A stretch of 64,000 bases of DNA. Origin: Vibrio penaeicida (GTDB lineage Bacteria > Pseudomonadota > Gammaproteobacteria > Enterobacterales > Vibrionaceae). Of the stretch, positions 9,785 through 29,930 are shown in pieces. Position 1 is the stretch's first letter. Every line of letters begins with the position of its first letter. The DNA is taken from NCBI RefSeq assembly GCF_019977755.1, contig NZ_AP025144.1, positions 3,224,001-3,288,000 on the forward strand. Reading direction: 5' to 3'. The notes below the pieces were generated by a model. The model was not told the DNA's origin and did not search any database. It saw only the letters and a list, made by a program, of their open reading frames with translations. The translations under genes were made by a program, and so were the position numbers.

Positions 9785-9793
9785 GCTATCCCC

Positions 9794-10288: not shown

Positions 10289-10342
10289 TTGCGGCTCCAT
10301 GGCTGGCAGATACAACGTGCCAGCCAGACTGTCTAAAAACAC

Positions 10343-11308: not shown

Positions 11309-11356
11309 CGCTTTTCCTTTTTGTTTGTGCCGCTGCATTTTCATGCTTACGACATT

Positions 11357-11389: not shown

Positions 11390-11564
11390 ATTCACCAAGA
11401 ATTATTATAACAATGAAGATTATTTTCAAAGTGTCATTTAACAAAATGTGAGAGCGAGCAAAATTTCACCAAACCTGCTCGTTTTTAACCAAGCTGAATG
11501 AATAAGCAACAAGTCACGTTTGAGTATCGCGTCTCAGTTCCATAGCGGCTTTTAACTTGATTTC

Positions 11565-13165: not shown

Positions 13166-13174
13166 GGATACTTT

Positions 13175-14314
13175 ATGACTCTACAAGCCATTTCAGCAAA
13201 AAGGATTTTTGATGGTGAGCGCTTCCATTTGAACTCAGCTATCCTTTGGCAAGATAATGAAATATTGGGTGTTATCCACCAAGAATCCATTCCTAAAGAT
13301 GCTCAAATCCATGACTATCACAATTGTACACTCGCCCCAGGTTTTGTAGATATACAAGTCAATGGTGGGGGTGGTGTCATGTTCAACCAAGATACCGATA
13401 TAGAAGGCATACAAACTATTTGCCGTGCACACCGAAAACACGGTACAGCCTATCTTCTCCCTACCTTGATCAGTGATAGCAAGGAGAAAATGGAACACGC
13501 TCTTATTGCAACCGAAGCTGCGATTCGCGACAAAATTGCAGGTGTTCTGGGTGTTCACTTAGAAGGACCTTGGCTTAACCCAGAAAAAAAAGGCGCACAC
13601 GACGACAAACACTTTTACGCTCCTTCGATCTCGGAACTTGAAGCCATGCCTTGGCTCAGCTCTGGTGCTACCTTGGTTACGCTCGCCCCTGAGATGGTGA
13701 CCACTGAAGTATTGAGTTGGCTCTCTGAAAAGAAAGTTATCGTTTCTTGTGGTCATAGCAATGCTATTCAAGCTCAGCTACATAGTGAAAAAATTCGCTA
13801 TGTAAATGGATTTACGCATTTGTACAACGCCATGTCTCCATTGGAAGGCAGAGAGCCAGGTGTTGTTGGAACGGCACTTCTTAATGACAACACTTGGTGC
13901 TCCATAATTACAGACGGTATTCATGTTTCAGAAAACAGCACACTATTGGCTCACCGTAGTAAACCAGCCGGAAAACTCTTCATCGTCACAGATGCCATGG
14001 CAACAGTAGGCAGCCAAAAGGACACCTTTGTTCTAAATGATGAAACAGTACGAGTCGTCGATGGAAAACTGGTGAATACTCAAGGCAGTTTAGCGGGCGC
14101 ACACATTGGTATGGATCAGTCGGTCGCCAATGTCATCCAATGGGGAGTTCCGGAAGAAGAAGCGCTAAAAATGGCATCGACATACGCAGCCAAAGCGATG
14201 CAGCAAGATACACTTGGATATCTTGCAAAAGGGTTTCGTGCAGCCATTACCATTTTGGATGATGAGTATGCGAGCCAAGGGGTCGTCGTGGACGGAAAAC
14301 TGTATCCGCAGTAA
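13175..14314 (+). CDS. nagA: N-acetylglucosamine-6-phosphate deacetylase (nan-linked copy)
   Basis: 379-residue amidohydrolase making GlcN-6-P and acetate. Metal-binding and catalytic motifs: GFVDIQVNGGGG, HLEGPWLNPEKKGAH (HxEGP), CGHSNA, GFTHLYNAMSPLEGREPG and the catalytic aspartate in VTDAM. Starts 9 bp after nanK with AAGGA upstream. In vibrios a second nagA usually sits in the chitin/GlcNAc locus; this one completes the sialic acid route. A terminator lies 42 bp downstream. Confidence 0.92.
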   Translation: MTLQAISAKRIFDGERFHLNSAILWQDNEILGVIHQESIPKDAQIHDYHNCTLAPGFVDIQVNGGGGVMFNQDTDIEGIQTICRAHRKHGTAYLLPTLISDSKEKMEHALIATEAAIRDKIAGVLGVHLEGPWLNPEKKGAHDDKHFYAPSISELEAMPWLSSGATLVTLAPEMVTTEVLSWLSEKKVIVSCGHSNAIQAQLHSEKIRYVNGFTHLYNAMSPLEGREPGVVGTALLNDNTWCSIITDGIHVSENSTLLAHRSKPAGKLFIVTDAMATVGSQKDTFVLNDETVRVVDGKLVNTQGSLAGAHIGMDQSVANVIQWGVPEEEALKMASTYAAKAMQQDTLGYLAKGFRAAITILDDEYASQGVVVDGKLYPQ

Positions 14315-14389: not shown

Positions 14390-14534
14390 TATTCGAAATC
14401 ACGCCATATCGCTACTTAGTGATTACCTTCTTTATAAAAAAGCGATACTATTCTCCTGCGTTGAAACACAAAGACGCATCCCCAAGTAATCTCCAGATTC
14501 GACTATCTGTGAGGATACTAGGGTGTAACAACAT

Positions 14535-14682
14535 TATTCTCAGGGCGGGGCGAAATTCCCCACCGGCGGTATACCAGATATTCTGGTGAGCCCGCGAGCG
14601 CTTGCAGTCGCTTGATTGCAAGGTCAGCAGATCTGGTGAAAACCCAGAGCCGACGGTCATAGTCCGGATGGGAGAGGATGAT
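14535..14682 (+). ncRNA. FMN riboswitch (RFN element) in the ribB leader
   Basis: All hallmark parts of the RFN aptamer are present: the opening TTCTCAGGGCGGGGCGAAA, CCCCACCGGCGGTA, the variable arm with GCCCGCGAGCG, the AGGTCAGCAGATCTGGTG segment, GCCGACGGTCATAGTCCGGATG and the closing GAGAGGATGA. FMN binding would lower ribB expression. It starts about 305 bp before the ribB ATG; 160 bp of expression platform follow. Confidence 0.95.
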
Positions 14683-14753
14683 AAAAACACAGTGAAACCA
14701 CTTCCTATTGGAGCTGGTGAGTACTCTGTGGGTTTTACTTTGGCTTGTATTTA

Positions 14754-14784
14754 GATCATGGGTAGCTTTTTGCCTACCATGATC
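14754..14784 (+). promoter_or_regulatory. Hairpin in the riboswitch expression platform
   Basis: GATCATGG pairs with CCATGATC (14777-14784), with TAG/CTA extending the stem after one bulge. No T-tract follows, so it is not a plain terminator. It may take part in alternative pairing between aptamer and ribB start. Confidence 0.5.
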
Positions 14785-14842
14785 CACAAGCCCCCTTCAT
14801 ATTATGCCCTGATTCTGGTAAATTTTTTTACGGAGTACTACC

Positions 14843-15505
14843 ATGAATCAGAACCAAACTTCATTGCTAGAACAATTTGGCACACCCATTGAGCGTGTAG
14901 AAAACGCCCTCGAAGCATTGCGACAAGGACGCGGTATTCTATTGCTTGATGACGAAGATCGTGAAAACGAAGGCGATCTCATCTATTCAACGGATCATTT
15001 AACAAATGAACAAATGGCGCTCATGATTCGCGAATGCAGCGGAATTGTTTGTTTGTGTGTGTCTGATGAACACGCCAATCAATTAGAACTGCCTCCGATG
15101 GTGGAAGCTAACGACAGCAAAAACCAAACAGCCTTTACGGTTTCTATCGAAGCAAAAGAAGGCGTAACCACTGGCGTCTCTGCTGCCGACCGTGTCACCA
15201 CCATAAAAACCGCCGCTCGTTTAGATGCAAAAGCCAGCGATCTCGCAAGACCTGGCCACGTTTTTCCATTACGTGCACGTCAAGGTGGTGTTATGACTCG
15301 TCGCGGTCATACAGAAGGTACAATCGATCTGATGCAAATGGCGGGGCTTTCCCCTTTTGGAATTTTGTGTGAAGTCGCAAACCCTGATGGTTCAATGGCG
15401 AAAACACCCGAAATCGTGGCGTTTGGCAAATTGCACAATATGCCTGTTCTGACTATTGAAGATATGGTCAGCTATCGCATTATGATGGAAGAAAAATCCG
15501 CATAA
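14843..15505 (+). CDS. ribB: 3,4-dihydroxy-2-butanone 4-phosphate synthase
   Basis: 220-residue enzyme forming the four-carbon riboflavin precursor from ribulose 5-phosphate. Motifs: [13 protein letters not shown] (acidic loop, metal and substrate), [26 protein letters not shown] and [12 protein letters not shown]. No GTP cyclohydrolase II domain is attached, as in E. coli RibB. Controlled by the FMN riboswitch upstream and transcribed alone, with a terminator about 120 bp downstream. Confidence 0.95.
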
Positions 15506-16221: not shown

Positions 16222-16345
16222 TCAGCGATTGAAGAAAATCATAGATCAATCACTAATTATTTGATTTTATTTAATTAAAACAAAATCCCTCCATTTTCCA
16301 TCTCAATCATGTTTCTTTTTTGTTAATTTCAATCTTGTCAATTAC

Positions 16346-16380
16346 TGGTCTAGTGGTAATGTTTCCGTACCAGTAGACCA
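16346..16380. promoter_or_regulatory. Inverted repeat, candidate FadR-type operator
   Basis: TGGTCTAGTGGT (16346-16357) is repeated in inverted form as ACCAGTAGACCA (16369-16380), differing at one position. The arms lie 35-70 bp before the start of the first catabolic gene. TGGTC/GACCA cores are typical of FadR-subfamily GntR regulators, two of which are encoded in this cluster. Confidence 0.5.
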
Positions 16381-16414
16381 AGAATCATACAGAATCTAAC
16401 CGTAAGGAAACGTT

Positions 16415-17437
16415 ATGCCTACCTCTTTGCCCACTGTTGCTATTTCTTTAGGCGATCCCTCTGGCATTGGTGCTGAACTGATAGCCAAATTATTCAGCCA
16501 AAATGGTATTACGTCACAAGCCAATATCGTACTCATAGGTGACCAATGGCTATGGGATCATGGCCAAAAGATTGCTCAAACTAAAATCGAGCTGAAAACG
16601 ATTGAGTCTCTATCTGACGCACGTCAGTACAGTGGATCGGGTGAGATTCTTTTTGTTCCGGTGCATTCCGTTAGTCAGCAAGAAGTGAAGGTAGGATTTG
16701 CAAGTGCCGCCGGAGGTAGTTCGGTATTAAACATATTAGATCAATGCCTAGATGCGGTAGTCGCCCACCATATTGATGCCATCTGTTTTGCGCCCCTGAA
16801 TAAACAAGCGATGATTCTCTCTGGATTGCCTTTTGAGGATGAACTCCACTACTTTGCCGACAAGCTAGGTGTCGATTCCTTTTTCTGCGAATTTAATACG
16901 CTTGGCAATCTGTGGACTTCAAGAATCTCATCTCATGTGCCACTGAAAGATGTGGTCAGCATCCTGAGTGAAGAACGAATCATCGAGGCCAGCAAGCTCA
17001 TCTATAAGGCATTAAAAGCCGCAGATATTGAATCCCCCAGAGTCGCGGTTGCAGCACTTAACCCACATGCTGGTGATGGTGGTGTTTGCGGTACAGAAGA
17101 AATCGACATCATTGAGCCGGCCGTAAACAAACTCAACAGCTTAGGTTACCCCGTTTTAGGTCCTTACCCTGCCGACACCATTTTTCTCAAAGCTCGAGAC
17201 GGCGATCTCGATGCCATTGTCACCATGTATCACGACCAAGGGCAGATCGCCATCAAGCTTCTCGGGTTTGAAAAGGGCGTAACGGTTCAAGGAGGGTTGC
17301 CAGTCCCGATTACCACCCCAGCTCATGGCACTGCTTATGACATTGCAGGAACTAACCAAGCCAATGTGAGCGCCACGATTCAAGCCTTCAATATTGCTTG
17401 CCGTATGGGCACCAACTATCGCAAACAAGCTCAATAA
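16415..17437 (+). CDS. PdxA-family (PdxA2-like) 4-phosphate dehydrogenase
   Basis: 340 residues related to 4-hydroxythreonine-4-phosphate dehydrogenase. GDPSGIG at 13-19, metal-binding histidines in SSHVPL (about 174), NPHAGDGG (about 218) and MYHDQG (about 273), and [10 protein letters not shown] near the C terminus. The segment [10 protein letters not shown] (143-152) replaces the GHTEFF-type motif of vitamin B6 PdxA, pointing to the PdxA2 branch that oxidises phosphorylated four-carbon acids such as threonate- or erythronate-4-phosphate. The usual DUF1537 kinase partner is absent here. First gene of the catabolic cluster; AAGGAAAC precedes the ATG. Confidence 0.75.
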
Positions 17438-17451
17438 CAGGAGACGTTTCA

Positions 17452-18624
17452 ATGAAAATAACCAAAGTTCAAGCCCGTGTATTTGAGTGGAATGGACACA
17501 CCGTAGAGCCCCAAAACAACTTTTGCTCCAATGCAATGGGTGAGTTATGGGATCGTGGCGATTCGATGGGGACATTCCGCTTTCACGGCTGGACTGTCGT
17601 TGAAGTGTTTACCGATGACGGATTGGTAGGTATTGGAAACGTTGCGTTAGCACCAAGAATTGCCAAACAAATCATCGACCAATATTTAGCACCAATCGTG
17701 ATAGGGCAAGACCCATTTGATTATGAATATCTCTGGCAAAGAATGTATCGCTCAACACTGGCATGGGGACGTAAAGGCATTGGCATGGCGGCGATTTCAG
17801 CCATTGATATCGCGCTTTGGGATTTGATGGGAAAAGCCACAAACAAGCCTGTATTCAAACTGCTTGGTGGGCGCACAAAAGAAACGATCCCTTGTTATGC
17901 CTCTAAGCTTTATCGCACGGATCTGGATGAAATGCAGCGCGAAGCGCAATCCTATCTAGACCAAGGATTTTCAGCCATGAAAATGCGATTTGGTTATGGT
18001 CCTAAGGATGGACCGCAGGGCGTAAGAAAAAACCTCGACAGTGTAGCGGCAATTAGAGAAGTCATCGGTGAAGACATCGACTTAATGCTGGAATGCTACA
18101 TGGGTTGGAACTTGGAATACGCCAAGCGTATTTTACCTAAATTGGAACAGTACCAGCCACGTTGGCTAGAAGAACCGGTAATCGCCGACGATATTGATGG
18201 CTATGCTGAACTCAATCAACTCACCAGTATTCCTATCTCCGGTGGCGAGCACGAATTTACCAGTTACGGCTTTCGTCAATTACTCGAAAAACGCGCGGTG
18301 TCAGTCATTCAATACGATACCAACCGAGTGGGTGGAATCACCGCGGCTCATAAAATCAACGCAATAGCCGAGTCTTTTGGTGTTCCTGTGATCCCTCATG
18401 CTGGGCAAATGCATAACTACCACCTCACGATGTCGACCCTTGCCTCTCCAATGTCGGAGTATTTCCCCGTCCATGACGTAGAGATAGGCAACGAGTTGTT
18501 TTACTACATCTTTGAAGGGGACCCATCACCCGTTAATGGCCATATCGAACTTGATGAAAACACACCGGGGTTAGGGCTGAGTATCAGCAAAAAACACCTC
18601 AAACAATTCAACGTGATTGAGTGA
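17452..18624 (+). CDS. Enolase-superfamily sugar acid dehydratase (rhamnonate-dehydratase-like)
   Basis: 390 residues, mandelate-racemase subgroup. The N-terminal capping domain runs to about 130, then the barrel carries K177/R179 (KMR), metal ligands E214, E240 and E266 (GGEHEF), and the general base pair D289 and H316 (IPHAG). Dehydration of a C5 or C6 aldonate to a 2-keto-3-deoxy acid is the likely reaction; substrate could be arabinonate, rhamnonate or a related acid. ATG 17452 follows CAGGAGAC; a longer frame to 17398 lacks such a site. Next gene begins 7 bp after the stop. Confidence 0.78.
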
Positions 18625-18631
18625 GGACGCC

Positions 18632-19618
18632 ATGAGAATCATACAGTTTGTACAAAATAGCCAGATCAAAGTGGCACTCGTCGAATCCTACGATCAGGTT
18701 CGTGTGTTAAATGCCTCTGGCGGAACATACCAACTAGTGATGGAGGCTATTAATACAGAGAAATCTTTAGCTCAGGTTATCGGTGAAAAATACACCAACG
18801 AAAGGCTGGATTACCAAGCCATCATTGATAACCAAATGCTGCTTCCTCCGATTACCCACGATGATCCTTCTCGTTGGTTAGTCACAGGAACGGGGTTAAC
18901 CCATCTCGGCAGTGCAGATGCCAGAGCGGAAATGCACGCCAAACTCGCGGGTGACGAAGAGCTCTCCGATTCAATGAAAATGTTTCAGCTGGGCGTAGAA
19001 GGCGGAAAACCAAACATTGGTGAAGTAGGTGCGCAGCCGGAATGGTTTTATAAAGGCGACGGTCAATGTGTCGTTGCCCCTGAACAACCTATCACTATGC
19101 CGAATTTTGCTGAAGATGGCGGTGAAGAGCCTGAGCTCACGGCGTTATATGTCATAGGCAGCGATGGCACTCCTTATCGCGTGGGTTTTGCTATCGGTAA
19201 CGAATTTTCTGACCACGTAACCGAGCACTTCAATTATTTATGGCTGGCGCATTCCAAATTGCGTTCATGCAGTTATGGACCAGAGCTGCTGATAGGCGAC
19301 TTACCCGAGCACTTAGAAGGCACGAGCGCTATTCAACGTGAAGACAAATTACTGTGGAGTAAGTCCTTCTTAACGGGCGAAGCCAACATGGCACATACCA
19401 TCAGTAACTTAGAGCACCATCACTTCAAATATGACCAATTCAGGCGTCCAGGAGATTTGCACGTGCACTACATGGGCACAGCCACACTCAGTTTTGCGGA
19501 TAAGGTGAAAACACAAGTAGGCGATCGATTTGAAATAACGATCCCCGCCTTTGGTCGCTCCTTGCGAAATACGTTGGTTCAAGCGTCTCCAGAATCGGTT
19601 CAAGTTAAAGCGCTATAG
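18632..19618 (+). CDS. FAH-superfamily protein, AraD1/GguC-like, probable 2-keto-3-deoxy sugar acid dehydratase
   Basis: About 328 residues. The fumarylacetoacetate-hydrolase fold is seen in the C-terminal two thirds with acidic metal-ligand motifs (EEPELTALYVIG, IGNEFSDHVTE) and THLGSADAR at about 93-102. Sulfolobus 2-keto-3-deoxy-D-arabinonate dehydratase belongs to this superfamily and makes alpha-ketoglutarate semialdehyde, the substrate of the enzyme encoded next. ATG 18632 has GTGAGG upstream; a TTG at 18617 inside the previous gene is less likely. A hydrolase of a diketo acid is the alternative. Confidence 0.7.
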   Translation: MRIIQFVQNSQIKVALVESYDQVRVLNASGGTYQLVMEAINTEKSLAQVIGEKYTNERLDYQAIIDNQMLLPPITHDDPSRWLVTGTGLTHLGSADARAEMHAKLAGDEELSDSMKMFQLGVEGGKPNIGEVGAQPEWFYKGDGQCVVAPEQPITMPNFAEDGGEEPELTALYVIGSDGTPYRVGFAIGNEFSDHVTEHFNYLWLAHSKLRSCSYGPELLIGDLPEHLEGTSAIQREDKLLWSKSFLTGEANMAHTISNLEHHHFKYDQFRRPGDLHVHYMGTATLSFADKVKTQVGDRFEITIPAFGRSLRNTLVQASPESVQVKAL

Positions 19619-19629
19619 GAATAAAAATC

Positions 19630-21207
19630 ATGATATTGACGGGTAAAATGACCATTGGGAGTAAAAAGATCATGGGTGACCAAAAAGTCATTCATGGCAT
19701 CAACCCAAACACAAACGAAGCGTTAGATCCACCTTATTTAGGCGCGAATGAAACCCAACTGTCTCAAGCGTGTGAACTCGCAAAACATGCATTTGCTATT
19801 TATCGAAAAACCAGTCCGGAGCGTAAAGCGGATTTTCTTCAAACCATCGGTGAAGAAGTCATGGCGCTGGAACACAGTTTGATTGAACGCGCAATGAAAG
19901 AGACGGGGCTACCTCAAGCAAGAATTGAAGGGGAAAGAGGCAGAACAGTCGGTCAATTAAATTTATTTGCTGACAACCTCAGAAAGGGGCTCACTTTCGT
20001 ACCGAAATTTGACTCCGCTATCCCAGACCGAGCCCCGCTGCCTCGCCCAGATATGCGATTGACGTATTTACCATTGGGTCCTGTCGCGGTATTTGGTGCC
20101 AGCAATTTCCCGCTCGCATTTTCGGTGGTAGGTGGCGATACAGCCTCTGCCTTAGCGGCAGGCTGTCCAGTGATAGTCAAAGCGCATTCGGCTCACCCCG
20201 GTACATCCGAGTTGGTCGCCAGTGCAGTGACTCGCGCTGCCAAACGCTGTGATATGCCTGAAGGTGTGTTCTCTATGCTGTTCGGATCCGGTCATTTAAT
20301 CGGTCAGGGATTAGTATCTCACCCAGCCATCAAAGCCGTGGGATTTACTGGCTCAAGAGCAGGAGGAATGGCGCTAATGGCAACCGCTCAACAGCGCCCA
20401 GAGCCGATTCCCGTGTACGCCGAAATGAGCAGCATTAACCCAGTCGTTCTGATGCCAAGTGCACTTCAAAGTAGTAGCGATACGCTCGCCCAAGGTTTTT
20501 GTGCCTCTTTGCAAATGGGCGCTGGTCAGTTTTGTACCAACCCTGGTTTAGTCCTTGCGATTGATGGTCCTGAACTGGATCAATTTATCGCCAAAAGTGC
20601 GGAAAACATCAATAACACCATCAGCCAAACCATGCTGACTTCTGGAATTCATGCTGCGTATCAAAACGGGGTGGGAACGCTGGTTGAAAACGCAACCATC
20701 ACAATGGTGAGTGAAGGAGATGTGTCGGGTAATCACAACCAATGCGTTCCTTACTTATTCAGTACGCGTGCAGAAGCCTTTCTTCAGCAAGAACAAGCAC
20801 GAGACGAAGTCTTTGGCAGCAGTTCATTGGTTGTTCGCTGCAAAAGCCTTGATCAACTTCTTGCGGTCATTGATGCGCTTGAAGGTCAGCTAACCGGCAC
20901 CATTCACACGGGTTCCAACGATTCAAACCAAGACCTTCAAGAGGTATTGGATCATCTAGAGCTCAAAGTGGGTCGAGTACTTTTCAATGGATTTCCAACG
21001 GGGGTTGAAGTCTCTCATGCCATGGTGCATGGCGGTCCTTTCCCCGCAACTTCAGATTCAAGAAGCACGTCGGTGGGTTCCAACGCTATTGAGCGATTCC
21101 TTCGTCCTGTTTGCTATCAAAATGTGCCGGAGCCTTTGCTGCCTGAGCCCATTAATAGAGATTTCGCTGGATTAGCGCTAATCGACGGGCACTACCAAAG
21201 CAATTGA
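19630..21207 (+). CDS. Alpha-ketoglutarate semialdehyde dehydrogenase (ALDH superfamily)
   Basis: 525 residues. Catalytic Cys302 in GAGQFCTNPG, Glu265 in YAEMSSINP, Asn159 in GASNFPLAFS and Lys184 for the cofactor. The EMSSINP and GAGQFCTNPG forms and the length are those of bacterial KGSADH enzymes that oxidise alpha-ketoglutarate semialdehyde to alpha-ketoglutarate at the end of non-phosphorylative pentose and hexarate pathways. Follows the FAH gene by 11 bp. The start gives a 20-residue lead; ATG 19648 or 19672 could also serve. Confidence 0.82.
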   Translation: MILTGKMTIGSKKIMGDQKVIHGINPNTNEALDPPYLGANETQLSQACELAKHAFAIYRKTSPERKADFLQTIGEEVMALEHSLIERAMKETGLPQARIEGERGRTVGQLNLFADNLRKGLTFVPKFDSAIPDRAPLPRPDMRLTYLPLGPVAVFGASNFPLAFSVVGGDTASALAAGCPVIVKAHSAHPGTSELVASAVTRAAKRCDMPEGVFSMLFGSGHLIGQGLVSHPAIKAVGFTGSRAGGMALMATAQQRPEPIPVYAEMSSINPVVLMPSALQSSSDTLAQGFCASLQMGAGQFCTNPGLVLAIDGPELDQFIAKSAENINNTISQTMLTSGIHAAYQNGVGTLVENATITMVSEGDVSGNHNQCVPYLFSTRAEAFLQQEQARDEVFGSSSLVVRCKSLDQLLAVIDALEGQLTGTIHTGSNDSNQDLQEVLDHLELKVGRVLFNGFPTGVEVSHAMVHGGPFPATSDSRSTSVGSNAIERFLRPVCYQNVPEPLLPEPINRDFAGLALIDGHYQSN

Positions 21208-21215
21208 ATGGAATA

Positions 21216-21249
21216 CCAATAAGTTAACTGAAATCCAATAAGTGAACTG
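21216..21249. repeat. 15-bp direct repeats before the first FadR-type gene
   Basis: CCAATAAGTTAACTG (21216-21230) and CCAATAAGTGAACTG (21235-21249) differ at one base and have a 19-bp period. They lie between the dehydrogenase stop and the regulator start and may be binding sites or a small duplication. Confidence 0.55.
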
Positions 21250-21288
21250 GTACGCCGTCAAGTAAACATGGCTCGATGAGGGAATATC

Positions 21289-22017
21289 ATGGCAGCGAAT
21301 GTATTTGCGTTTGAAAAGCAGCTAAAAAATCAAACTAAGAAAGACATCCTTGCAAGCAAGTTACTGGAAATGATTTTTTCTGGCTTGCTAAGAGATGGGG
21401 ATACGCTGCCGAGCGAGCGAGAGCTGTGTGCCATGTTTGGCGTAAGCCGAGAAACCGTAAGGGGTGCAATAGGGATGATCGCCGCTTATGGGCTTATTAG
21501 TGTTTCACACGGTGCAAAAAGCCGAGTCAATCGTAATGATGAGTTGTTAAAGCGTTGCATCGAGCTTCTTCCTCAGCTCTCCAATCTCACCATCAACAAT
21601 TACGACATTGAAGCCGTCTTTCAAAGCAGAAAAGTGGTCGAAGCCGCTATTGCACATGGCGTTGCCATTCACATTGACCAACAAGGCTTGAGTGAACTCA
21701 AGGCATTATTAGAACAACAAGAATCGCTTTTTGAAAAGCCAGCTCATTTCCAGATATCGGATCAGCGCTTTCACAAGCTGATTTCTGACTACAGCGACAA
21801 CGCGATTCTGGCAGGCTATGCCGACGAACTCTATGCCTATGGGCTTAACTTTCGACGCAGTGTTTTGGAGCAAGAGGGTGCTATTCAAAAAAGTTTTATT
21901 GAGCACTACGAAATATACAAAGCACTGGAACAAGGCAATCCAAAATTAGCAGAAAAAGCCATGCTAGATCACCTCAACAGCGTGTACTACACCACGATCT
22001 CTGCCATGAGGAATTAG
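21289..22017 (+). CDS. GntR-family (FadR subfamily) regulator 1
   Basis: 242 residues. The winged helix at about 18-75 includes LPSERELCAMFGVSRETVRGA; the all-helical FCD effector domain follows (about 95-235) with metal-binding histidines (RFHKLI, LDHLNSVY). FCD regulators of this kind (UxuR, LldR and relatives) respond to organic or sugar acids. Preceded by GAGGGA. It is closely similar over its full length to the regulator at 25286-26014, and the two bracket the TRAP genes. Confidence 0.85.
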   Translation: MAANVFAFEKQLKNQTKKDILASKLLEMIFSGLLRDGDTLPSERELCAMFGVSRETVRGAIGMIAAYGLISVSHGAKSRVNRNDELLKRCIELLPQLSNLTINNYDIEAVFQSRKVVEAAIAHGVAIHIDQQGLSELKALLEQQESLFEKPAHFQISDQRFHKLISDYSDNAILAGYADELYAYGLNFRRSVLEQEGAIQKSFIEHYEIYKALEQGNPKLAEKAMLDHLNSVYYTTISAMRN

Positions 22018-22079
22018 CCAATTAATCAAATAACCATACACGTGCAAACCATTGATTGGTGGGCATGAATTTAGGACAC

Positions 22080-22101
22080 CAACGGTCATTGACGACCATT
22101 G
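22080..22101. promoter_or_regulatory. Inverted repeat upstream of the second TRAP operon
   Basis: CAACGGTC and GACCATTG are inverted around ATTGAC, giving a GGTC-N6-GACC core like FadR-type operators. It ends 22 bp before the TRAP binding-protein gene. Confidence 0.35.
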
Positions 22102-22123
22102 AAATTAACGGAGAAACGCAGAA

Positions 22124-23119
22124 ATGAACATCACGACCATGCGCAAAATGTTAATTAGTACCACTGTAGTATCACTGGCATTTGCCGCTCCACACACCTT
22201 AGCGAAAGAGCTGATATTTGCCATTGGTGCCGCACAGGGATCGTTACAGTACAAAACTGCAGAAAAGTTTGCGAACAATGCAAATGCCGCGTTGAAATCC
22301 GCCGGTTCCGACTATTCGATTAGCCTTTTTGGTGATGGACAGTTGGGTAAAGATAAGGAATTGATGCAAAAGCTAAAACTTGGAACGGTTCACCTTAGCC
22401 AACCCTCTTCCATCATGGCGAAAGTCACACCACAGTTTGCTCTCTTTGATATGCCGTTTTTGGTGAAAGACCGAGCGCACCTAGCAAAAATCGAATCCGA
22501 AGTTTTCTGGCCAAGCATAGCACCAACAGCCGATAAGAAAGGCTACAAGGTACTCAGCATGTGGGAAAACGGGTTCCGTCATATTACTAACAACGTCAAA
22601 CCCATCAACACACCAGCAGATTTGAAAGGCATTAAATTGCGAACGCCGAATAGCACGTGGCGTGTGAGTATGTTCCGTAACTGGGGAGGTAATCCAACGC
22701 CGATGTCTTTCTCTGAAGTGTTTGTTGCATTGCAAACAGGCGTCATCGATGGGCAGGAAAACCCACTCACCAATATTTATGCGGCGAAATTCAATGAAGT
22801 ACAGAAATACTTGTCTTTAACCAATCACGTTTACAGCCCTTCCTACCTTGTTGCTGGCAAACGAACTTGGGACAAAATTCCTGCTGATGTTCAAACGATC
22901 ATCAAAGATTCTGCCAACGCTATCAAGCCTTGGATGTATGAATTGTCAGACAGCCAAGAACAAGAATTGCTAGGGAAATTGAAGAAAGGCGGAATGCAGG
23001 TGAACAAAGCCAGCTATCAAGATTTTGTCGATGCCAGTAAGCCAATTTATGAACAGTTTGCTAAGAAAGTGGATGGCGGTAAAGACATGCTGGATAAAGT
23101 GTTGTCACTCGCGAACTAA
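22124..23119 (+). CDS. dctP: TRAP transporter substrate-binding protein (sugar acid type)
   Basis: 331 residues with a signal peptide ending near LAKE (about 27). The carboxylate-binding arginine is in GIKLRTPN, and FSEVFVALQTGVIDGQENP is the family motif. It shares its frame with SiaP but differs around the ligand site (LRTPNSTWRVSMF versus LRVPNAKPNLNYA), so sialic acid is unlikely; an aldonate such as the substrate of the upstream enzymes is the best guess. GGAG upstream of the ATG. Confidence 0.85.
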   Translation: MNITTMRKMLISTTVVSLAFAAPHTLAKELIFAIGAAQGSLQYKTAEKFANNANAALKSAGSDYSISLFGDGQLGKDKELMQKLKLGTVHLSQPSSIMAKVTPQFALFDMPFLVKDRAHLAKIESEVFWPSIAPTADKKGYKVLSMWENGFRHITNNVKPINTPADLKGIKLRTPNSTWRVSMFRNWGGNPTPMSFSEVFVALQTGVIDGQENPLTNIYAAKFNEVQKYLSLTNHVYSPSYLVAGKRTWDKIPADVQTIIKDSANAIKPWMYELSDSQEQELLGKLKKGGMQVNKASYQDFVDASKPIYEQFAKKVDGGKDMLDKVLSLAN

Positions 23120-23139
23120 TCAACACTGGATATTAATGA

Positions 23140-23157
23140 GGGCAGTCATGCCCTCTC
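23140..23157 (+). promoter_or_regulatory. Intercistronic hairpin between TRAP P and Q genes
   Basis: GAGGGCA-GTCA-TGCCCTC, a 7-bp perfect stem with no T-tract, 12 bp before the dctQ start and next to its CAGGAGG Shine-Dalgarno. It could protect the dctP message and favour more binding protein than permease. Confidence 0.55.
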
Positions 23158-23169
23158 TCAGGAGGAATC

Positions 23170-23763
23170 ATGATTGCAAGATTGGCATATAGATTAGAGA
23201 AAGTACTCGAAGGAATGTCTGTATTTCTCGTGCTGTCGATGACGTTTGTAATTGTGTTTGGCGTCATTATGCGTAAAACCGGTTCATCTCTAATCTGGTA
23301 TGACGAAGTCGCCTCTTTGCTGCTGGTATGGATAACCTATTACGGTGCCGCAACCGCAGCAATTAAACGAAGTCATCTAGGGTTTAGTGGCTTGTTATAC
23401 AGTGCAAAAGGCACGCTTCAATCCACCCTATTTTGGGTATCCGAAGTCATCGTGATTGGGTTCTTTGCCCTGGTTGCTTTTTATGGCTGGACGGTACTTG
23501 AATATTTTGAAGGTGAGACTCTAATCAGCCTGCCTTGGGTTCCTGTCCCGTTCGTGCAGTCCGTTATCCCTATTGGCGCCATTTTGTTTATTTTTGCTGA
23601 GCTTCTTTCTATTCCACAAGCATTACAAGACATGCGTGAAGGTCGAGATCACGACCGCGCCGAACTCGAAGAGTACGCAGAGGAATGTGGCATCGATACA
23701 GAAGATCTATTCCCCAGCGGTGAGAAAACACATGTACACAAAAAGATGGAGGCTAAATCATGA
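23170..23763 (+). CDS. dctQ: TRAP transporter small permease
   Basis: 197 residues with four predicted membrane segments and the conserved Q-subunit stretch IWYDEVASLLLVWITYYGAA. An unusual acidic C-terminal tail of about 35 residues (DRAELEEYAEECGIDTEDLF) projects into the cytoplasm. Strong CAGGAGG site upstream. Overlaps dctM by 4 bp. Confidence 0.85.
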   Translation: MIARLAYRLEKVLEGMSVFLVLSMTFVIVFGVIMRKTGSSLIWYDEVASLLLVWITYYGAATAAIKRSHLGFSGLLYSAKGTLQSTLFWVSEVIVIGFFALVAFYGWTVLEYFEGETLISLPWVPVPFVQSVIPIGAILFIFAELLSIPQALQDMREGRDHDRAELEEYAEECGIDTEDLFPSGEKTHVHKKMEAKS

Positions 23764-25046
23764 TCTACCTGCTATTATTTGGTGGTTTAATTGCATTGGT
23801 AATGATCAATGTGCCTATCGCAGTTTCCATTGGCGTGGTTGCTATTAGTGGTATGTTGCTTACCTCTGGTTCTGACGCCATGCTCAATGTGCCACTTACC
23901 TTGTATGAAGGTGCGACCAAATTCCCACTACTTGCCATTCCTTTGTTCGTTTTGGCGGGCGAGTTGATGAATACCTCAAGCATCTCTCGTCGTCTGATTG
24001 ATCTTGTGTCCGCCATGATTGGCTTTGTGCGGGGTGGCTTAGCGATGGTCAATATTGGGGTTTCCATGTTCTTTGCTGAGATATCAGGATCGGCGGTGGC
24101 GGATGTGGCTGCGACCGGAAGCGTGTTGATGCCAGCAATGAAAAAGCGCGGCTACAAGCCAACTTTTGTTGCCGCCATCACTTCGTCGTCCGCCTCTTTA
24201 GCCATCATCATTCCTCCCTCTATTTCGATGATCCTATACGGCGCTATTGCGGATACCTCCATCGTAAAGTTGTTCTTAGCCGGTGTTGTACCCGGTGTAC
24301 TTGGCGGAGCATTAATGATGGCGCTCTCGTATTACTTTGCTATCCGCTACAACCTTCCGCGTGAAGATGCATTTAGCTGGAAAAACCTAAAGCAGAAGTT
24401 TAAAGAAGCGATTTGGGCTTTGTTTCTTCCCGTCATTATCTTAGGGGGTATTTTTGGTGGTGTGGTTACCGCTACCGAAGGTGCGGGGCTTGCCGTTATC
24501 GCAGCGCTAGTCATCGGCTTTATCATCTATCGTGAGCTTACCCTAGCCCACCTATACAAATGTATGATTCGAGCAAGTGTTCAAACGGCGGCAGTCATGC
24601 TCTTGGTGGCGACGTCGGCTTTACTTGGCTTGTTTCTGACTGAAGTTCGACTTCCTCAAGAAATGGCTCAAGCGATTCTGGATTTCACAGAAAGCAAGAT
24701 CGTGGTGCTAATGCTACTGAACATCTTGTTCTTTATTTTAGGTATGTTTTTGCATGGTGCTGCGGCCATAATTTTAGTCGTCCCAATGGTTTTACCTTTG
24801 GTGCTTCAGTTTGGTATAGACCCTATTCACTTCGGGCTGATTGTGACCCTTAACCTCGCTATAGGGCAACAAACCCCACCTGTCGCCAGTGTACTCGCAA
24901 CCGCTTGTTCCATAGCCAAAGTGGATATCTGGTCCACAACCCGTGCAAACTTGCCCTTTATTGGTGTGTTGATTGCACTTCTTCTCCTTGTGACTTACGT
25001 ACCATTTATCACACTCGGCTTGGTTGATTTGGTGTATGGAAAGTAA
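23760..25046 (+). CDS. dctM: TRAP transporter large permease
   Basis: 428 residues, about 12 hydrophobic segments. Family motifs: NVPIAVSIGV, FAEISGSAVADVAATGSVLMP, IIIPPSISMILYGAIADTS and GQQTPPVASVL. Forms the sodium-driven translocation path with the Q subunit. Translationally coupled to dctQ through an ATGA overlap. A long inverted repeat about 95 bp after the stop may end the message. Confidence 0.88.
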   Translation: MIYLLLFGGLIALVMINVPIAVSIGVVAISGMLLTSGSDAMLNVPLTLYEGATKFPLLAIPLFVLAGELMNTSSISRRLIDLVSAMIGFVRGGLAMVNIGVSMFFAEISGSAVADVAATGSVLMPAMKKRGYKPTFVAAITSSSASLAIIIPPSISMILYGAIADTSIVKLFLAGVVPGVLGGALMMALSYYFAIRYNLPREDAFSWKNLKQKFKEAIWALFLPVIILGGIFGGVVTATEGAGLAVIAALVIGFIIYRELTLAHLYKCMIRASVQTAAVMLLVATSALLGLFLTEVRLPQEMAQAILDFTESKIVVLMLLNILFFILGMFLHGAAAIILVVPMVLPLVLQFGIDPIHFGLIVTLNLAIGQQTPPVASVLATACSIAKVDIWSTTRANLPFIGVLIALLLLVTYVPFITLGLVDLVYGK

Positions 25047-25141
25047 CCCCGTTTAGGGAAGTAGAAAGATGAGCCTCCACAATACGGCTGACAAGCCTTC
25101 CCTCTATCAGCCAAGGCTGAACAAGGGCATGTCGGTCATTT

Positions 25142-25195
25142 GATTCACATAACGTGTCTGTAAAGTTCCACGCCGGCACGTTGCTTATGTGAATC
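25142..25195. repeat. Inverted repeat between dctM and the second regulator gene
   Basis: GATTCACATAA (25142-25152) and TTATGTGAATC (25185-25195) are an 11-bp perfect inverted pair; CGTG/CACG extend the pairing inward. No T-tract follows directly. It may be a terminator, a regulator site or a protected mRNA end. Confidence 0.55.
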
Positions 25196-25262
25196 CGTCC
25201 TTCTGCTTCCCGTTTTTCTTACGCTTGCTCTTAAACCGTACCATCCCCATAATTGTGAAAGA

Positions 25263-25274
25263 ATTGTACACAAT
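25263..25274. promoter_or_regulatory. Palindrome over the start of regulator 2
   Basis: ATTGTACACAAT is a 12-bp palindrome with two central bases, ending 11 bp before the ATG. TTGT-N2-ACAA cores occur in GntR/FadR-type operators. Binding here would block ribosome loading or elongation, giving autocontrol; inferred only. Confidence 0.4.
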
Positions 25275-25285
25275 GGTATTTCCTT

Positions 25286-26014
25286 ATGACTCGCTCAGCT
25301 TTTGCCTTTGAGCAAACCCTGAAAAACAAAACCAAAAAAGACATTCTGGCGGAAAAGATTCTGGAAATGATCGTAACGGGCTTATTACGCGATGGGGACG
25401 AGTTACCTAGCGAGCGAGAACTCAGCAGCATGTTTGGGGTGAGCAGAGAAACCGTACGTGGCGCGTTAGGCATTATTCAAGCGTATGGAATGATCCATGT
25501 TTCTCATGGTTCCAAAACACGTGTTAATCGAGACGAGCAATTGCTCAAACGCAATGACTGGTTACCGGAGTCTTCCAGCTTACAAATCAACAACCATTCT
25601 GTAGATACTGTTTTTGAAAGCCGAAAAGTGATCGAAGCAGCCATCGCTCGTCAAGCTGCGAAAAACATTACTCAATCGCAACTCAACGAGTTAAAAGCGT
25701 TGCTGAAACAGCAATCCAAAATGTTCTCAGATCCTGTCCGGTTTCAACTGTCCGATCACCAGTTTCATTTGAGCATTGCTGAAATTGCCGCAAACCCAAT
25801 TTTCATCAATTATTCTGACGAACTCTATTCCTTTGGTTTGAAATTTCGACGCCAAGTCATGAGTAAAAAAGGTTCCATAGAACAAAGCTATATAGAGCAC
25901 ATGGCTATTTACGAAGCGTTGAGCCAACACGACGCAGATGCCGCTGAGCAAGCCATGCTCAATCACCTCACCAGCGTACATCAAACAACTGTTGAAGAAA
26001 TGGAAGACGCTTGA
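25286..26014 (+). CDS. GntR-family (FadR subfamily) regulator 2
   Basis: 242 residues, same layout as regulator 1: winged helix with LPSERELSSMFGVSRETVRGA and an FCD domain with metal-binding histidines (QFHLSIAE, LNHLTSVHQ). Matches regulator 1 at well over half of positions by eye, so the pair comes from a duplication. The Shine-Dalgarno is weak. Its last 34 bp overlap the 3' end of the convergent histidine kinase gene. Confidence 0.85.
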   Translation: MTRSAFAFEQTLKNKTKKDILAEKILEMIVTGLLRDGDELPSERELSSMFGVSRETVRGALGIIQAYGMIHVSHGSKTRVNRDEQLLKRNDWLPESSSLQINNHSVDTVFESRKVIEAAIARQAAKNITQSQLNELKALLKQQSKMFSDPVRFQLSDHQFHLSIAEIAANPIFINYSDELYSFGLKFRRQVMSKKGSIEQSYIEHMAIYEALSQHDADAAEQAMLNHLTSVHQTTVEEMEDA

Positions 26015-29000
26015 ATTCGAGAAATCATTTCAGCTGTTTGTTTAGACAGCTTTTCGGATATGCCTTCATCAAACTTTCCTTCTTGCAATGACAAGTCCAA
26101 CGATAGCGCCATGTCCTGTAATTCTGTCGCCCCTATCACCCCTGCCGTTCCCGCAAAATCGTGATAAATACGTTGAAGGTCGCGTGTATTGTCCGGCGAA
26201 ACTTCTGATACATCGTGCAAAAATGACGTGGCCATATCGGAGAAAATCGTCAGCCTGTTTTTCACTTTTAGATCGCAATGAGCACATTGATTCAATAAAA
26301 ACGACATATCAATGCCTTCAATCAACAGTGTTGGTTCCTCAGATGGCCAACGTATCTCGCCCTTGGTGTTACGTTTATTGTCGTGAGAAATATCAAGACA
26401 ATAGGGAGAGAGTAACTCCAATAACTGGTCTGCCAGAATCGGTTTTGCAATGCAGTCATCGAACACATCAACACGATAAGACGCTGCTCCAGGACTGGCG
26501 CTGGTGCAAATGATGGTTAAATCCGATAACTTTGGGTTCTTTCGAATTTCCATTGCGCATTCAATTCCGTCCACTTCTGGCATGTGCAGGTCTAGCAACA
26601 ACACGTGATAATCAAACTTCGACAACGCATCCAGCGCTTGCTGACCATTTTCAACCACATCAACATCCGCGCCAAACATGGCCAGCATGTCGCTGATGAA
26701 CTCCTGATTTAATTTGTTATCGTCGGCCACCAGCACTTTTAGCCCACTGAGTGCGTAGTCTGTGTCGGAGAGAAGGCTTTGCTCATCCACCTCTTTCCCA
26801 TTCATTTTCCCCACAAGTTGAAGAACATCCGACACGCGAATAGGTTTGCTCAACCGGCAGACGTTGCCCTCTACCTCATCCACTTCGTCGATGTTACAAA
26901 GCATCGCAACAGGAATTTCCGAAAGGTCAGTGGTTTGAAGAATATCGATGAAGGTTTCTCCCGATATGCCTTCCAATGCTTGGTCCACAAGAATGAGGTC
27001 GTAATTACACGTCATCTCTAACGCTTGTGAAGCCGACACAAGATCGCACTCCATGCCTAGCCACTTTAACGTAAGCTCAGTGTTTTCTCCGAACAAGGTA
27101 TTTTCACAGACCAACAAAACATGCGCAGATTCGGATGGTCGTTCGGGTGCGTTAATTAATGGGAAAGACAATTCAAAAGAAAAGAGAGAGCCTCGCCCCA
27201 CTTGACTAAAGCATTCAATTTTCCCGCCCATCAGATGGACAATTTTTTGGCTAATCGATAAACCAAGCCCCGTGCCTTTATGGTGTTCGTCCAACTGTGA
27301 GTATGGTTTGAAAAGGCGATCGCGAGATTGCCGAGATATTCCTTGCCCAGAATCCGAGATATTAAAGGCTAGCACCACTTCATGACCGGCTTTGCGTACA
27401 ACCGATATTCCCACTCCCACATAACCATGATCCGTGTGTTTAATCGCGTTGTTGGTCAGATTGATAATGACTTGTTCTAACCGAACACTGTCACCCATTA
27501 AATGAGCTGGAACATCAGGCGCAACTTGAATGTGCATTTGAACTGGTTTTCCTGCCAGAGCGGGGGTAGATACAGAAGTGACGTGATCAACCACATCGAC
27601 CAAACTGAAAGGCTCACATTTCAAGCTCAGTTTTTTCTGTTCGAGCTTAGAAAAATCAAGGCTGTCATTTATGATTTTCACTAAATTTGATGACGCTTGC
27701 TCAATTTTCTCTAAGTAGTCTTGCGTACTCAGCTGCCCTTTTCCCTGCTTGGCCAAATACACAAACCCCAGAACCGCATTCATCGGCGTCCGGAGCTCAT
27801 GACTAATGATCGCTAACGTATTGGCTTTGTCTTGAGCAATTTGCCTCTCAATGGACATTCGAGTTTCCGCATCCTGCTTATCTTGTTTCAGCAGTTTAAT
27901 GCGATTTGCCAAAGCCACGGAGAATAAACAAACCTCAACGACGCCCCCTAAATGCATCAGGTAATTGGTGACAACACTGTCGTGTATTAACCCGATGTTC
28001 GCCATAGAATTCATGCTAACACCAGCAAACAAAAGGGACCACGCCACCAAATATAATCCAGAACCTTCAATTCTTTTGTAGAGCGCTGCAACCCCTACCA
28101 GCATGCCGATAACGCCAGAACCAATGGCAACTGCAAAGCTTAGTTGACCCACTGTAGAGTAAGAAACAATATAGGTCATCACGATCAAGAGTACTGAGAC
28201 CGCCTTAGTGATCTCAACAATGATGTTCACCCAGGGCATATTTTTACGAATTTGCAACAACTCTTGGCTAAATAGCAACGTACAAAACGTGAGCATCCCT
28301 GTCGTGATGGGAATCGAACGACTTGCCCAATCTGGCGCATTTGGCCACAAATAGTGAAAAGCCAAACCATCCCAACATGCCGCGCTCAATGCAGCACTTA
28401 TAACAAAGAATAAGTAATACGCGTATACCTTGTCTCGTAGACGAAAAAAGACAAAGGCGTTGTATACTGCGATTAAAAGTAACCCGCCGTAAAAGAGCCC
28501 TAGAAAGAAGTTTTCCTGCCCCAGTGTCTGAGCAAACTCAATATCGGTATAGTACTCCAATGGGAGCTGAAGAATACTTTCACTCTGTACTCTTAGATAA
28601 AAAACCGTTGGTTCATTAGAGGAAAAGGTAACGCGAAACGTATTATGCCTGTCGTGGAAGGGGCGAACATCAAACGCATAACGATCCCCAGACTGTTGGT
28701 GCACAAGGCGCGTACCGTCTATCACTTGGTAAAAATCGAGGTAGTCCAACGGCGTGTAAGAAACCGTCAAGATACAACAATCTTCTTGAGGTTTCATGAA
28801 GGTCACTTTTAGCCAAAAAGCCGATTTGCTGTAGCCAAAGTTATTCACTTCATTTGTAGAGATAGCTTCCCAATCAGATTGATCTAACGCCAAAACATCA
28901 CTAATTCTCATGTTCGCACTTTCATCTTCAAATTTGCTCATGCTGGCAATTGGAATAGATGTTTTCTTTACATGAGCTGAGCTTTCAAAACTCAACATTG

Positions 29001-29064
29001 AGCTGAGAATGAATAGAATGGCAACAAAGCTATATTTCATAAATGAGACATTAAAGTGCGACAT
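25981..29064 (-). CDS. Hybrid sensor histidine kinase with 7TMR-DISM sensor
   Basis: 1027 residues. Signal/anchor segment at 10-30, a 7TMR-DISMED2 extracellular domain (about 40-175), seven membrane helices (7TMR-DISM, about 185-390), HisKA with phospho-accepting H422 (SHELRTPMN), HATPase with N box and GTGLGLSI, a degenerate first receiver (D694), a full second receiver (D825, LLLDLHMPEVDG, K in IAKP) and a C-terminal Hpt domain with H968. A complete phosphorelay protein in the inner membrane. The ligand is unknown; DISMED2 domains resemble carbohydrate-binding folds. Divergent from the OmpR-type regulator that is its likely target. ATG 29040 is another possible start. Confidence 0.88.
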   Translation of the reverse strand: MSHFNVSFMKYSFVAILFILSSMLSFESSAHVKKTSIPIASMSKFEDESANMRISDVLALDQSDWEAISTNEVNNFGYSKSAFWLKVTFMKPQEDCCILTVSYTPLDYLDFYQVIDGTRLVHQQSGDRYAFDVRPFHDRHNTFRVTFSSNEPTVFYLRVQSESILQLPLEYYTDIEFAQTLGQENFFLGLFYGGLLLIAVYNAFVFFRLRDKVYAYYLFFVISAALSAACWDGLAFHYLWPNAPDWASRSIPITTGMLTFCTLLFSQELLQIRKNMPWVNIIVEITKAVSVLLIVMTYIVSYSTVGQLSFAVAIGSGVIGMLVGVAALYKRIEGSGLYLVAWSLLFAGVSMNSMANIGLIHDSVVTNYLMHLGGVVEVCLFSVALANRIKLLKQDKQDAETRMSIERQIAQDKANTLAIISHELRTPMNAVLGFVYLAKQGKGQLSTQDYLEKIEQASSNLVKIINDSLDFSKLEQKKLSLKCEPFSLVDVVDHVTSVSTPALAGKPVQMHIQVAPDVPAHLMGDSVRLEQVIINLTNNAIKHTDHGYVGVGISVVRKAGHEVVLAFNISDSGQGISRQSRDRLFKPYSQLDEHHKGTGLGLSISQKIVHLMGGKIECFSQVGRGSLFSFELSFPLINAPERPSESAHVLLVCENTLFGENTELTLKWLGMECDLVSASQALEMTCNYDLILVDQALEGISGETFIDILQTTDLSEIPVAMLCNIDEVDEVEGNVCRLSKPIRVSDVLQLVGKMNGKEVDEQSLLSDTDYALSGLKVLVADDNKLNQEFISDMLAMFGADVDVVENGQQALDALSKFDYHVLLLDLHMPEVDGIECAMEIRKNPKLSDLTIICTSASPGAASYRVDVFDDCIAKPILADQLLELLSPYCLDISHDNKRNTKGEIRWPSEEPTLLIEGIDMSFLLNQCAHCDLKVKNRLTIFSDMATSFLHDVSEVSPDNTRDLQRIYHDFAGTAGVIGATELQDMALSLDLSLQEGKFDEGISEKLSKQTAEMISRIQASSISSTVV

Positions 29065-29219: not shown

Positions 29220-29930
29220 ATGCCTCATCGTCGTATTTTAGTAGTTGAAGATCACGCACCTACACGTGAATCACTCGTAAAAGCATTACAGTCTCAAGGC
29301 TATGATGTCCTCATCAACATTACTGGTGAAGGTGTCTTTCAGCAGGTTGCTAACAGCCACCCCCCCATAGACTTAGTGCTTTGTGATGTCGTGCTGCCTA
29401 ATGCTGATGGCACCGAGATTGCACATTGCCTTTCTAAGGAAAAATTATGCAAAGTCATATTGGTATCCAGCCGAAAATCGGATGAAGATCGTATCAAGGG
29501 GCTGGCTCGAGGGGCTGATGACTATGTTGTGAAGCCACTGAATATGGTGGAAGTGCTACTTAGAGTCCAAGCCGTATTGCGCCGCAATGACGTGCCCTCA
29601 CACGAGCACGATCAAGAATCTATCTACATTCATGTTTACCCAGGTATTCGCCTGCATAAAGAAAATAAGTTATTGCTTCATAAAGACGGAACCGAGTTTC
29701 GTTTAACGGATGCGGAAAATGAAGCGCTGCTTTTCCTTATTGGCAACGCCGGAAAGGTATGCACCCGCCCTCAATTAGTGAAGATAACAAAAAGCCAAAA
29801 TTGGTCGCCAACCGACCGCTCCATTGACATGCTAATCAGCCGTTTACGAAAGAAACTCGAAGCAAACAGCTCACATGCAGAGTTGCTGGTGACGATTCGC
29901 GGCAAAGGTTACATGCTTGCTACTCAGTAA
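29220..29930 (+). CDS. OmpR-family response regulator
   Basis: 236 residues: receiver domain (1-120) with acidic ED at 10-11, phospho-acceptor D56 (LVLCDVVLP) and K106-region VVKPL, then a winged-helix Trans_reg_C domain (about 135-234) ending RGKGYMLA. Starts 155 bp from the divergent hybrid kinase gene, with which it probably forms a TorSR/ArcAB-like phosphorelay. Targets unknown; the intergenic A/T-rich stretch is the first place to look for its own sites. Confidence 0.88.
   Translation: MPHRRILVVEDHAPTRESLVKALQSQGYDVLINITGEGVFQQVANSHPPIDLVLCDVVLPNADGTEIAHCLSKEKLCKVILVSSRKSDEDRIKGLARGADDYVVKPLNMVEVLLRVQAVLRRNDVPSHEHDQESIYIHVYPGIRLHKENKLLLHKDGTEFRLTDAENEALLFLIGNAGKVCTRPQLVKITKSQNWSPTDRSIDMLISRLRKKLEANSSHAELLVTIRGKGYMLATQ

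Follow-up and report, generated by a model that had tools for sequence, protein, structure and literature searches.

The window analysed here, 64,000 nucleotides of the Vibrio penaeicida contig NZ_AP025144.1 (positions 3,224,001 to 3,288,000), carries between its positions 16415 and 26014 a cluster of nine genes which, with a probability of about three in four, encodes the lower half of the pathway by which bacteria degrade L-ascorbate (vitamin C), together with an importer of its own. In the proposed scheme, a tripartite ATP-independent periplasmic (TRAP) transporter would take up 2-carboxy-L-lyxonate, and a PdxA-family enzyme would oxidise this acid at C3, remove one of its carboxylates and re-reduce the product to L-lyxonate, with NAD+ acting catalytically; the reaction is a reported one, and the step is assigned here from family, residues and gene neighbourhood. 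An enolase-superfamily enzyme would convert L-lyxonate to 2-keto-3-deoxy-L-lyxonate, a protein of the AraD1/GguC family would convert the latter to alpha-ketoglutarate semialdehyde, and an aldehyde dehydrogenase (ALDH) would form 2-oxoglutarate. Two GntR/FCD proteins may control the operon by way of an inverted repeat in front of it. The pathway would be entered at the carboxy-acid, formed spontaneously from diketogulonate, since orthologs of the cytochrome b561, gluconolactonase, WD40/YncE and lactonase proteins were not found in the genome. Enzymes and route are, with good confidence, of a known kind, and a decay product of vitamin C probably feeds the cell; a pathway that starts on its own at 2-carboxy-L-lyxonate, served by a dedicated TRAP receptor, would plausibly represent a new variant.

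All nine open reading frames (ORFs) run rightward in the ORF listing, and family searches returned PdxA, MR_MLE (N- and C-terminal parts), AraD1/GguC, Aldedh, GntR+FCD (twice), DctP, DctQ and DctM. A preliminary description of this DNA had placed the nine genes correctly, and its call of TRAP P/Q/M genes with two FadR-type regulators was matched by the DctP, DctQ and DctM hits and by the two GntR+FCD hits. With all three subunits encoded together, the TRAP transporter is complete. The core is not a chance grouping, because it recurs across Pseudomonadota.

Table 1. Features of the proposed 2-carboxy-L-lyxonate cluster (positions within the window).
Feature	Position	Strand	Basis or remark
PdxA-family oxidative decarboxylase; proposed 2-carboxy-L-lyxonate decarboxylase	16415..17437	+	PF04166
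Enolase-superfamily (MR subgroup) sugar-acid dehydratase; proposed L-lyxonate dehydratase	17455..18624	+	MR_MLE
AraD1/GguC family protein; proposed 2-keto-3-deoxy-L-lyxonate dehydratase	18632..19618	+	NF040903
Aldehyde dehydrogenase; proposed alpha-ketoglutarate semialdehyde dehydrogenase	19630..21207	+	Aldedh
GntR/FCD regulator 1	21289..22017	+	GntR+FCD family search
TRAP solute-binding protein, window type; proposed 2-carboxy-L-lyxonate receptor	22124..23119	+	DctP; putative ligand
TRAP small permease DctQ	23170..23763	+	PF04290
TRAP large permease DctM	23760..25046	+	PF06808, TIGR00786
GntR/FCD regulator 2, paralog of regulator 1	25286..26014	+	GntR+FCD family search
Putative operator, imperfect inverted repeat TGGTCTAGTGGTA / TACCAGTAGACCA	16345..16382	+	5' of pdxA-like gene

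In Ralstonia eutropha H16, L-ascorbate is reportedly degraded by a pathway in which b561, gluconolactonase, a WD40/YncE rearrangement enzyme and an amidohydrolase lactonase act upstream and in which the decarboxylation of 2-carboxy-L-lyxonate by a PdxA-family enzyme is the last step before L-lyxonate. In Pseudomonas aeruginosa PAO1, L-lyxonate is said to be converted to 2-oxoglutarate by a dehydratase, an FAH-type dehydratase and an aldehyde dehydrogenase. Like the R. eutropha pathway, the window would have a PdxA-family decarboxylase feeding L-lyxonate into the lower route to 2-oxoglutarate, its gene adjoining the L-lyxonate genes; like P. aeruginosa PAO1, it has an enolase-superfamily dehydratase, an FAH-type second dehydratase and an ALDH. 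In contrast to R. eutropha H16, the upstream orthologs were not found in the window's genome, and a dedicated TRAP importer and two GntR/FCD regulators are added. PA2212 of P. aeruginosa is a PdxA. In PMC3557286, PA2212 as well as genes for FAH and aldehyde dehydrogenase are named in a figure legend for the PA2206-2217 region; the paper enters PA2214 as an MFS transporter, gives hypothetical proteins for PA2215 and PA2216, and notes a TRAP insertion in P. fulva. PA2214 is also named a putative L-lyxonate transporter (PMC10413270); the window, by contrast, has a TRAP importer. A need for a COG4948 enzyme in ascorbate degradation is stated in PMC10444878, which cites Stack 2020 (JACS) and Ghasempur 2014 (Biochemistry). 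Within the window's own family, Enterovibrio calviensis has a full-looking ascorbate cluster (L026) that shares the PdxA-LyxD-GguC-ALDH core and a GntR regulator; window-type TRAP is missing from it, and WD40, SMP-30, b561 and a binding protein of the ABC sugar type are added. A parallel with the D-arabinose pathway of Sulfolobus had been drawn in the preliminary description and holds for the shared non-phosphorylative route with its two dehydrations and semialdehyde dehydrogenase; it is less apt than the comparison with L-ascorbate and L-lyxonate, because the PdxA-type decarboxylation to L-lyxonate is a reported step of ascorbate breakdown. Route II as outlined for Herbaspirillum (PMC6336799) shows the same likeness; unlike these pentose pathways, the cluster contains neither a sugar dehydrogenase nor a lactonase, and a decarboxylation would come first. 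The earlier suggestion of a non-phosphorylative route to 2-oxoglutarate is retained here in conditional form.

One set of 80 loci consists of the best 80 of 584 confirmed stretches, and the gene content of loci was assigned by tblastn with named proteins. The survey counts cover 85 of 90 dehydratase loci, including short or edge-cut ones (e.g. L043, L070, L017); L083, L085, L089, L090 and L092 were searched as single plasmid records and not as genomes, and the plasmid loci L084, L086, L087, L088 and L091, as well as L138 and L139, stand outside the counts. A PdxA gene was found in the dehydratase locus in 77/85 cases, at a distance of at most 300 bases in 71 and of 1.3-5.7 kb in 6. Of the five plasmid loci left out, L084 had no PdxA match and the other four had one, that of L091 being split in two. 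Similarly, in an even sample of 398 Pseudomonadota genomes the dehydratase occurred in 10, with PdxA within 1.5 kb in 8 of them (own genome included), and eight of ten annotated plasmid loci with the dehydratase had an annotated PdxA, the exceptions being Marinovum and Polaromonas. PdxA is the commonest partner of the dehydratase, and the earlier view that it does not fit the route, implying a second substrate or an undescribed branch, had to be given up. In the same ten plasmid loci, SMP-30/gluconolactonase was annotated in 5, b561 in 3, YncE in 3 and a neighbouring amidohydrolase in 1; b561, SMP-30 and YncE, families of the upstream ascorbate steps, occurred together in those of Variovorax, Paraburkholderia and Sphingomonas. 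Sulfatase-like genes lie near the dehydratase in the Marinovum and Polaromonas loci (L084, L091), perhaps pointing to a sulfated precursor. DUF1537 together with an LtnD-type gene was found in six loci, all from Chromohalobacter/Salinicola (L027, L029-L031, L033, L037) and all without PdxA; joint use of L-lyxonate and L-threonate is possible there. L-Threonate is described as another ascorbate breakdown product in PMC11066805.

The PdxA-like protein matched PF04166 with 293 bits. Its NCBIfam scores were below the cut-off of the PdxA equivalog (263 bits; cut-off 290.35) and far below that of D-threonate-4-phosphate dehydrogenase (NF002891; 198 bits; cut-off 583). The metal triad H174/H218/H273 is retained. 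The PdxA substrate residues H136, T137, N283 and R292, whose UniProt numbering fits the alignment, are replaced by E143, L144, T290 and I299. The genome's own canonical PdxA served as reference for a comparison of 81 dehydratase-linked proteins (80 from the loci and that of the window). In all 81, the metal histidines (E. coli H166, H211, H266), D247, D267, K123 and K274 are kept, H136 is replaced by E and N283 by T; T137 is replaced by L in 77, by H in 3 and by M in 1, and R292 by I in 76 and by V in 5. Two rhizobial PdxA proteins encoded away from any dehydratase also show H136 to E and N283 to T, and because of these the signature would mark a wider group acting on non-phosphorylated compounds and not this reaction alone. 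Both rhizobial genes (L093, L094) lie near TTT transporter genes in loci without a dehydratase match, and another non-phosphorylated substrate is possible for them.

PdxA2 and a DUF1537 kinase act in tetronate catabolism. An enzyme that, like PdxA2, acts on D-threonate or D-erythronate 4-phosphate would agree with the best solved-structure match of the PdxA-like protein, the PdxA2-type chain 2hi1 (182 bits). Such a phosphorylated substrate is very unlikely, because a family search of the own genome for the DUF1537 kinase (PF07005) found none, with the control matched in 3/14; in addition, the GHT motif, retained in the PdxA2 and D-threonate-4-phosphate dehydrogenase chains, is replaced in the dehydratase-linked proteins, and the tetronate-phosphate route was discarded. 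Membership of PF04166 would also suit a second enzyme of vitamin B6 synthesis that stands here by chance. We consider this hardly credible and dropped it, as the genome has a separate PdxA elsewhere with a higher score (364 vs 293 bits) and as the pairing with the dehydratase recurs in the survey.

For the dehydratase, the catalytic residues named in the preliminary description are all present, with a numbering that was one too high: counted from the ATG at 17455, they are K176/R178, E213/E239/E265 and D288/H315. In the Labrenzia enzyme the corresponding residues are R179 and H316. The 389 residues from this ATG correspond to the full length over which dehydratase relatives align. The K and R of the KxR motif, E239, E265 and the D and H of the His-Asp dyad do not vary across the 93 relatives compared, and the position of E213 is occupied by E in 86 and by D in 7. 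The protein is 98-99% identical to Vibrio penaeicida records. Its closest solved chains (3sqs, 3ssz, 3stp; about 615 bits) are named only MR/MLE protein or 'galactonate dehydratase, putative'. With 252 bits it remained below the cut-off of 393 for the L-rhamnonate dehydratase RhmD (NF011968), and because of this the public name 'L-rhamnonate dehydratase' on close relatives appears doubtful. Its score was under the cut-off in all 13 NCBIfam families listed, and an identity as RhmD or another named dehydratase was dropped.

The third gene product, called an FAH-family protein earlier, was assigned by the NCBIfam model AraD1/GguC (NF040903; 519 bits against a cut-off of 340), in agreement with that call, whereas the Pfam search gave no family; no solved structure was matched by its sequence. 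GguC is not universal, as a dihydrodipicolinate-synthase-type protein replaces it in many Betaproteobacteria and Rhodobacterales. In the ALDH, C302 and E265, as given in the preliminary description, were confirmed by alignment. Its closest solved chain is the NADP+ aldehyde dehydrogenase 3v4c (476 bits), and it shares 51% identity with an ALDH that the depositors of the Marinovum locus named ketoglutarate semialdehyde dehydrogenase. An AraD1/FAH-type second dehydratase and an ALDH thus share the cluster with the dehydratase, as in the L-lyxonate pathway. Homologous, re-specialised enzymes could serve a different C5/C6 acid, e.g. L-arabinonate or another branched acid, and on chemical grounds one 2-keto-3-deoxy acid would be reached from any pentonate whose C4 has the L configuration. 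This seems unlikely in view of the fact that the window dehydratase shares 64-99% identity with the enzymes of loci that have ascorbate genes and of loci that lack them and that Enterovibrio-type clusters with WD40 and SMP-30 share the PdxA-LyxD-GguC-ALDH core.

No match for WD40/YncE was found in the window's genome at E <= 1e-20, and a looser search gave partial matches of 25-32% identity. The best matches for the amidohydrolase (lactonase) and gluconolactonase queries were weak (27% over half of the query and 26% over most of the query, respectively). Because WD40/YncE was not found in the own genome, the cluster is filed as a truncated variant and would not represent the full L-ascorbate pathway. 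The dehydratase is present in 9 and WD40/YncE in 7 of the 150 genomes searched from the window's family; all seven belong to those 9, and in each of them WD40 sits between GguC and ALDH. The two family genomes with dehydratase and without WD40 are the own genome and G005, whose cluster (L118) is syntenic with the window and has its genes, the TRAP genes and both regulators among them, in the same order. In the genome G006, a stop codon breaks WD40/YncE (C8:115798-116732, on the contig of L023) in an otherwise full-looking cluster; a decaying gene or a sequencing error is possible.

In the 85-locus survey, WD40 was the only gene searched genome-wide, and lactonase, gluconolactonase and b561 were judged at the locus. 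WD40 was detected genome- or record-wide for 35/85 loci, 34 of which have PdxA in the locus. In 37 loci PdxA was present, WD40 was missing from the genome or record, and the locus itself had neither lactonase nor gluconolactonase nor b561; ten of these PdxA-only loci have the window-type TRAP, 24 have TTT-type transporter genes and three have neither. An amidohydrolase without WD40 occurred in five loci and a gluconolactonase only in one. Three loci (L012, L018, L034) with a lactonase-type amidohydrolase in genomes lacking WD40 at E <= 1e-20 are candidates for entry at the carboxy-lactone. Loci with ABC-type genes had WD40 in 8/8 cases. In the phylum sample, 6/10 dehydratase genomes were without WD40, and 2/6 WD40-positive genomes were without dehydratase, both by distant matches (32-38%).

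The TRAP system of the window probably imports 2-carboxy-L-lyxonate, a spontaneous decay product of vitamin C. According to PMC11066805, diketogulonate gives 2-carboxy-L-pentonate and two lactones non-enzymatically. The products CPA/CPL were found in diketogulonate preparations and were not oxidised in vivo, as stated in PMC6225978. Window-type TRAP genes occur in 16 surveyed loci, in all cases with PdxA, and WD40 is absent in 12 (for one of these, L085, the plasmid record alone was searched); with the own genome and G005 counted, 14/18 are without WD40. In 12/16 loci the permease gene ends at most 44 bases from pdxA, and in the other 4/16 the TRAP genes follow the ALDH gene, as in the window. 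A W179-R180 pair is invariant in 17/17 window-type binding proteins (that of L011, cut short and 53% covered, was left out) and occurs in 0/35 other TRAP binding proteins from these neighbourhoods; the 35 are encoded on the plus strand, do not belong to the window type and share 30% identity or more with the Ruegeria protein along a stretch exceeding 200 residues. The pair stands seven residues past R173, an arginine shared by the other aligned TRAP binding proteins, and the second arginine, R180, would suit the second carboxylate of a ligand. Import of a pentonate or a related acid by the TRAP system, as suggested earlier, is in keeping with this assignment.

The same enzymes could also operate with a TRAP system that imports L-lyxonate, diketogulonate or carboxy-lyxonolactone, which we regard as possible and somewhat doubtful. 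L-Lyxonate alone suffices for the lower three enzymes, and the carboxy-acid and the lactones decay slowly, by decarboxylation, to L-lyxonate and L-xylonate according to PMC11066805. DctM matches YiaN, the permease for diketogulonate, below threshold (267 bits against a cut-off of 800), though the other TRAP permease of the window (8501-9784) does so too, with 289 bits. Import of one of these compounds is at odds with the fact that window-type TRAP is found in none of the 8 PdxA-less loci and always together with PdxA. Moreover, a second, different TRAP is present in 4/4 window-type loci with WD40; it is also found in 2/12 without WD40, both with amidohydrolase. The own genome, in addition, has no close lactonase relative, as described above.

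For uptake of 2-carboxy-L-lyxonate, we tentatively propose a stand-alone pathway with a diacid-type TRAP receptor in hosts that would be unable to make 2-carboxy-L-lyxonate from vitamin C. More widely, diketogulonate, the carboxy-lactone, the carboxy-acid and L-lyxonate may be successive points at which related bacteria join the decay chain, each with no more than the downstream enzymes and the matching transporter retained; this proposal could well hold, and could just as readily need revision. The literature searched contained no report of a stand-alone TRAP-fed variant, the primary ascorbate and lyxonate papers, which may mention variants, lying outside that search.

Several observations weigh against an ascorbate-derived pathway of this truncated kind. 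The likeness to the P. aeruginosa, Labrenzia and R. eutropha enzymes would be one of family, residues and neighbourhood. The dehydratase occurs without PdxA in 8/85 loci, and no upstream ascorbate gene is annotated in 5/10 plasmid loci (Marinovum, Paracoccus, Qingshengfaniella, Caballeronia, Polaromonas), although the Polaromonas locus nonetheless contains SMP-30- and YncE-like DNA. In the own genome b561 was unmatched in a search that had no positive control. WD40 is present in 4/16 genomes with window-type TRAP, compared to 30/61 other PdxA-bearing loci, and this contrast is not significant (Fisher p = 0.098), because TTT-type loci are often without WD40 too; furthermore, the loci compared are related by descent.

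The two GntR/FCD regulators are paralogs, 58% identical over 242 residues, and the Halomonas clusters inspected have one such regulator. The inverted repeat upstream of the pdxA-like gene, a putative operator for these proteins, consists of 18-nucleotide arms that are 83% complementary, and 37/38 of its bases are the same in the syntenic G005 cluster. When 86 loci (1.62 Mb) were scanned with a 13-base half-site at up to 2 mismatches, 49 sites were found, 19 of which lie within 250 bases upstream of pdxA or the TRAP receptor gene, in 15/86 loci, which include those of Vibrio, G005, Halomonas, Marinobacterium, Chromohalobacter and Cobetia. Regions in Zobellella resemble the operator by eye. A promoter scan gave fewer sigma-70-like sites than shuffled sequence (4 vs a mean of 17.0), and terminator-like sites were at chance level (11 vs 11.3).

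With these results, the undescribed pentonate branch is removed as a false lead, and clusters publicly named 'L-rhamnonate dehydratase' and 'PdxA' are indicated as belonging to vitamin C catabolism. If bacteria enter the chain at different points as proposed, poorly studied ascorbate decay products would have dedicated consumers, bacteria in sea and soil would have a standing source of food in the spontaneous decay products of vitamin C, and the TRAP receptor would provide a first means of assaying the free compound in environmental samples.

Upstream of the cluster, an FMN riboswitch (116.7 bits) is followed by a ribB-like ORF, recognised by eye (14532-15505; ORF 14843-15505). Further upstream (8501-14314) lie leftward TRAP genes, for which DctP and DctM were confirmed by family search, and the rightward ORFs beside them resemble NanE, NanK and NagA by eye, suggesting an adjoining cluster of the sialic-acid type. 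On the other side, a large leftward ORF that by eye resembles a hybrid sensor kinase (25981-29064) overlaps the second GntR gene with its 3' end by 34 bases, and a response-regulator-like ORF (29220-29930, also by eye) adjoins it.

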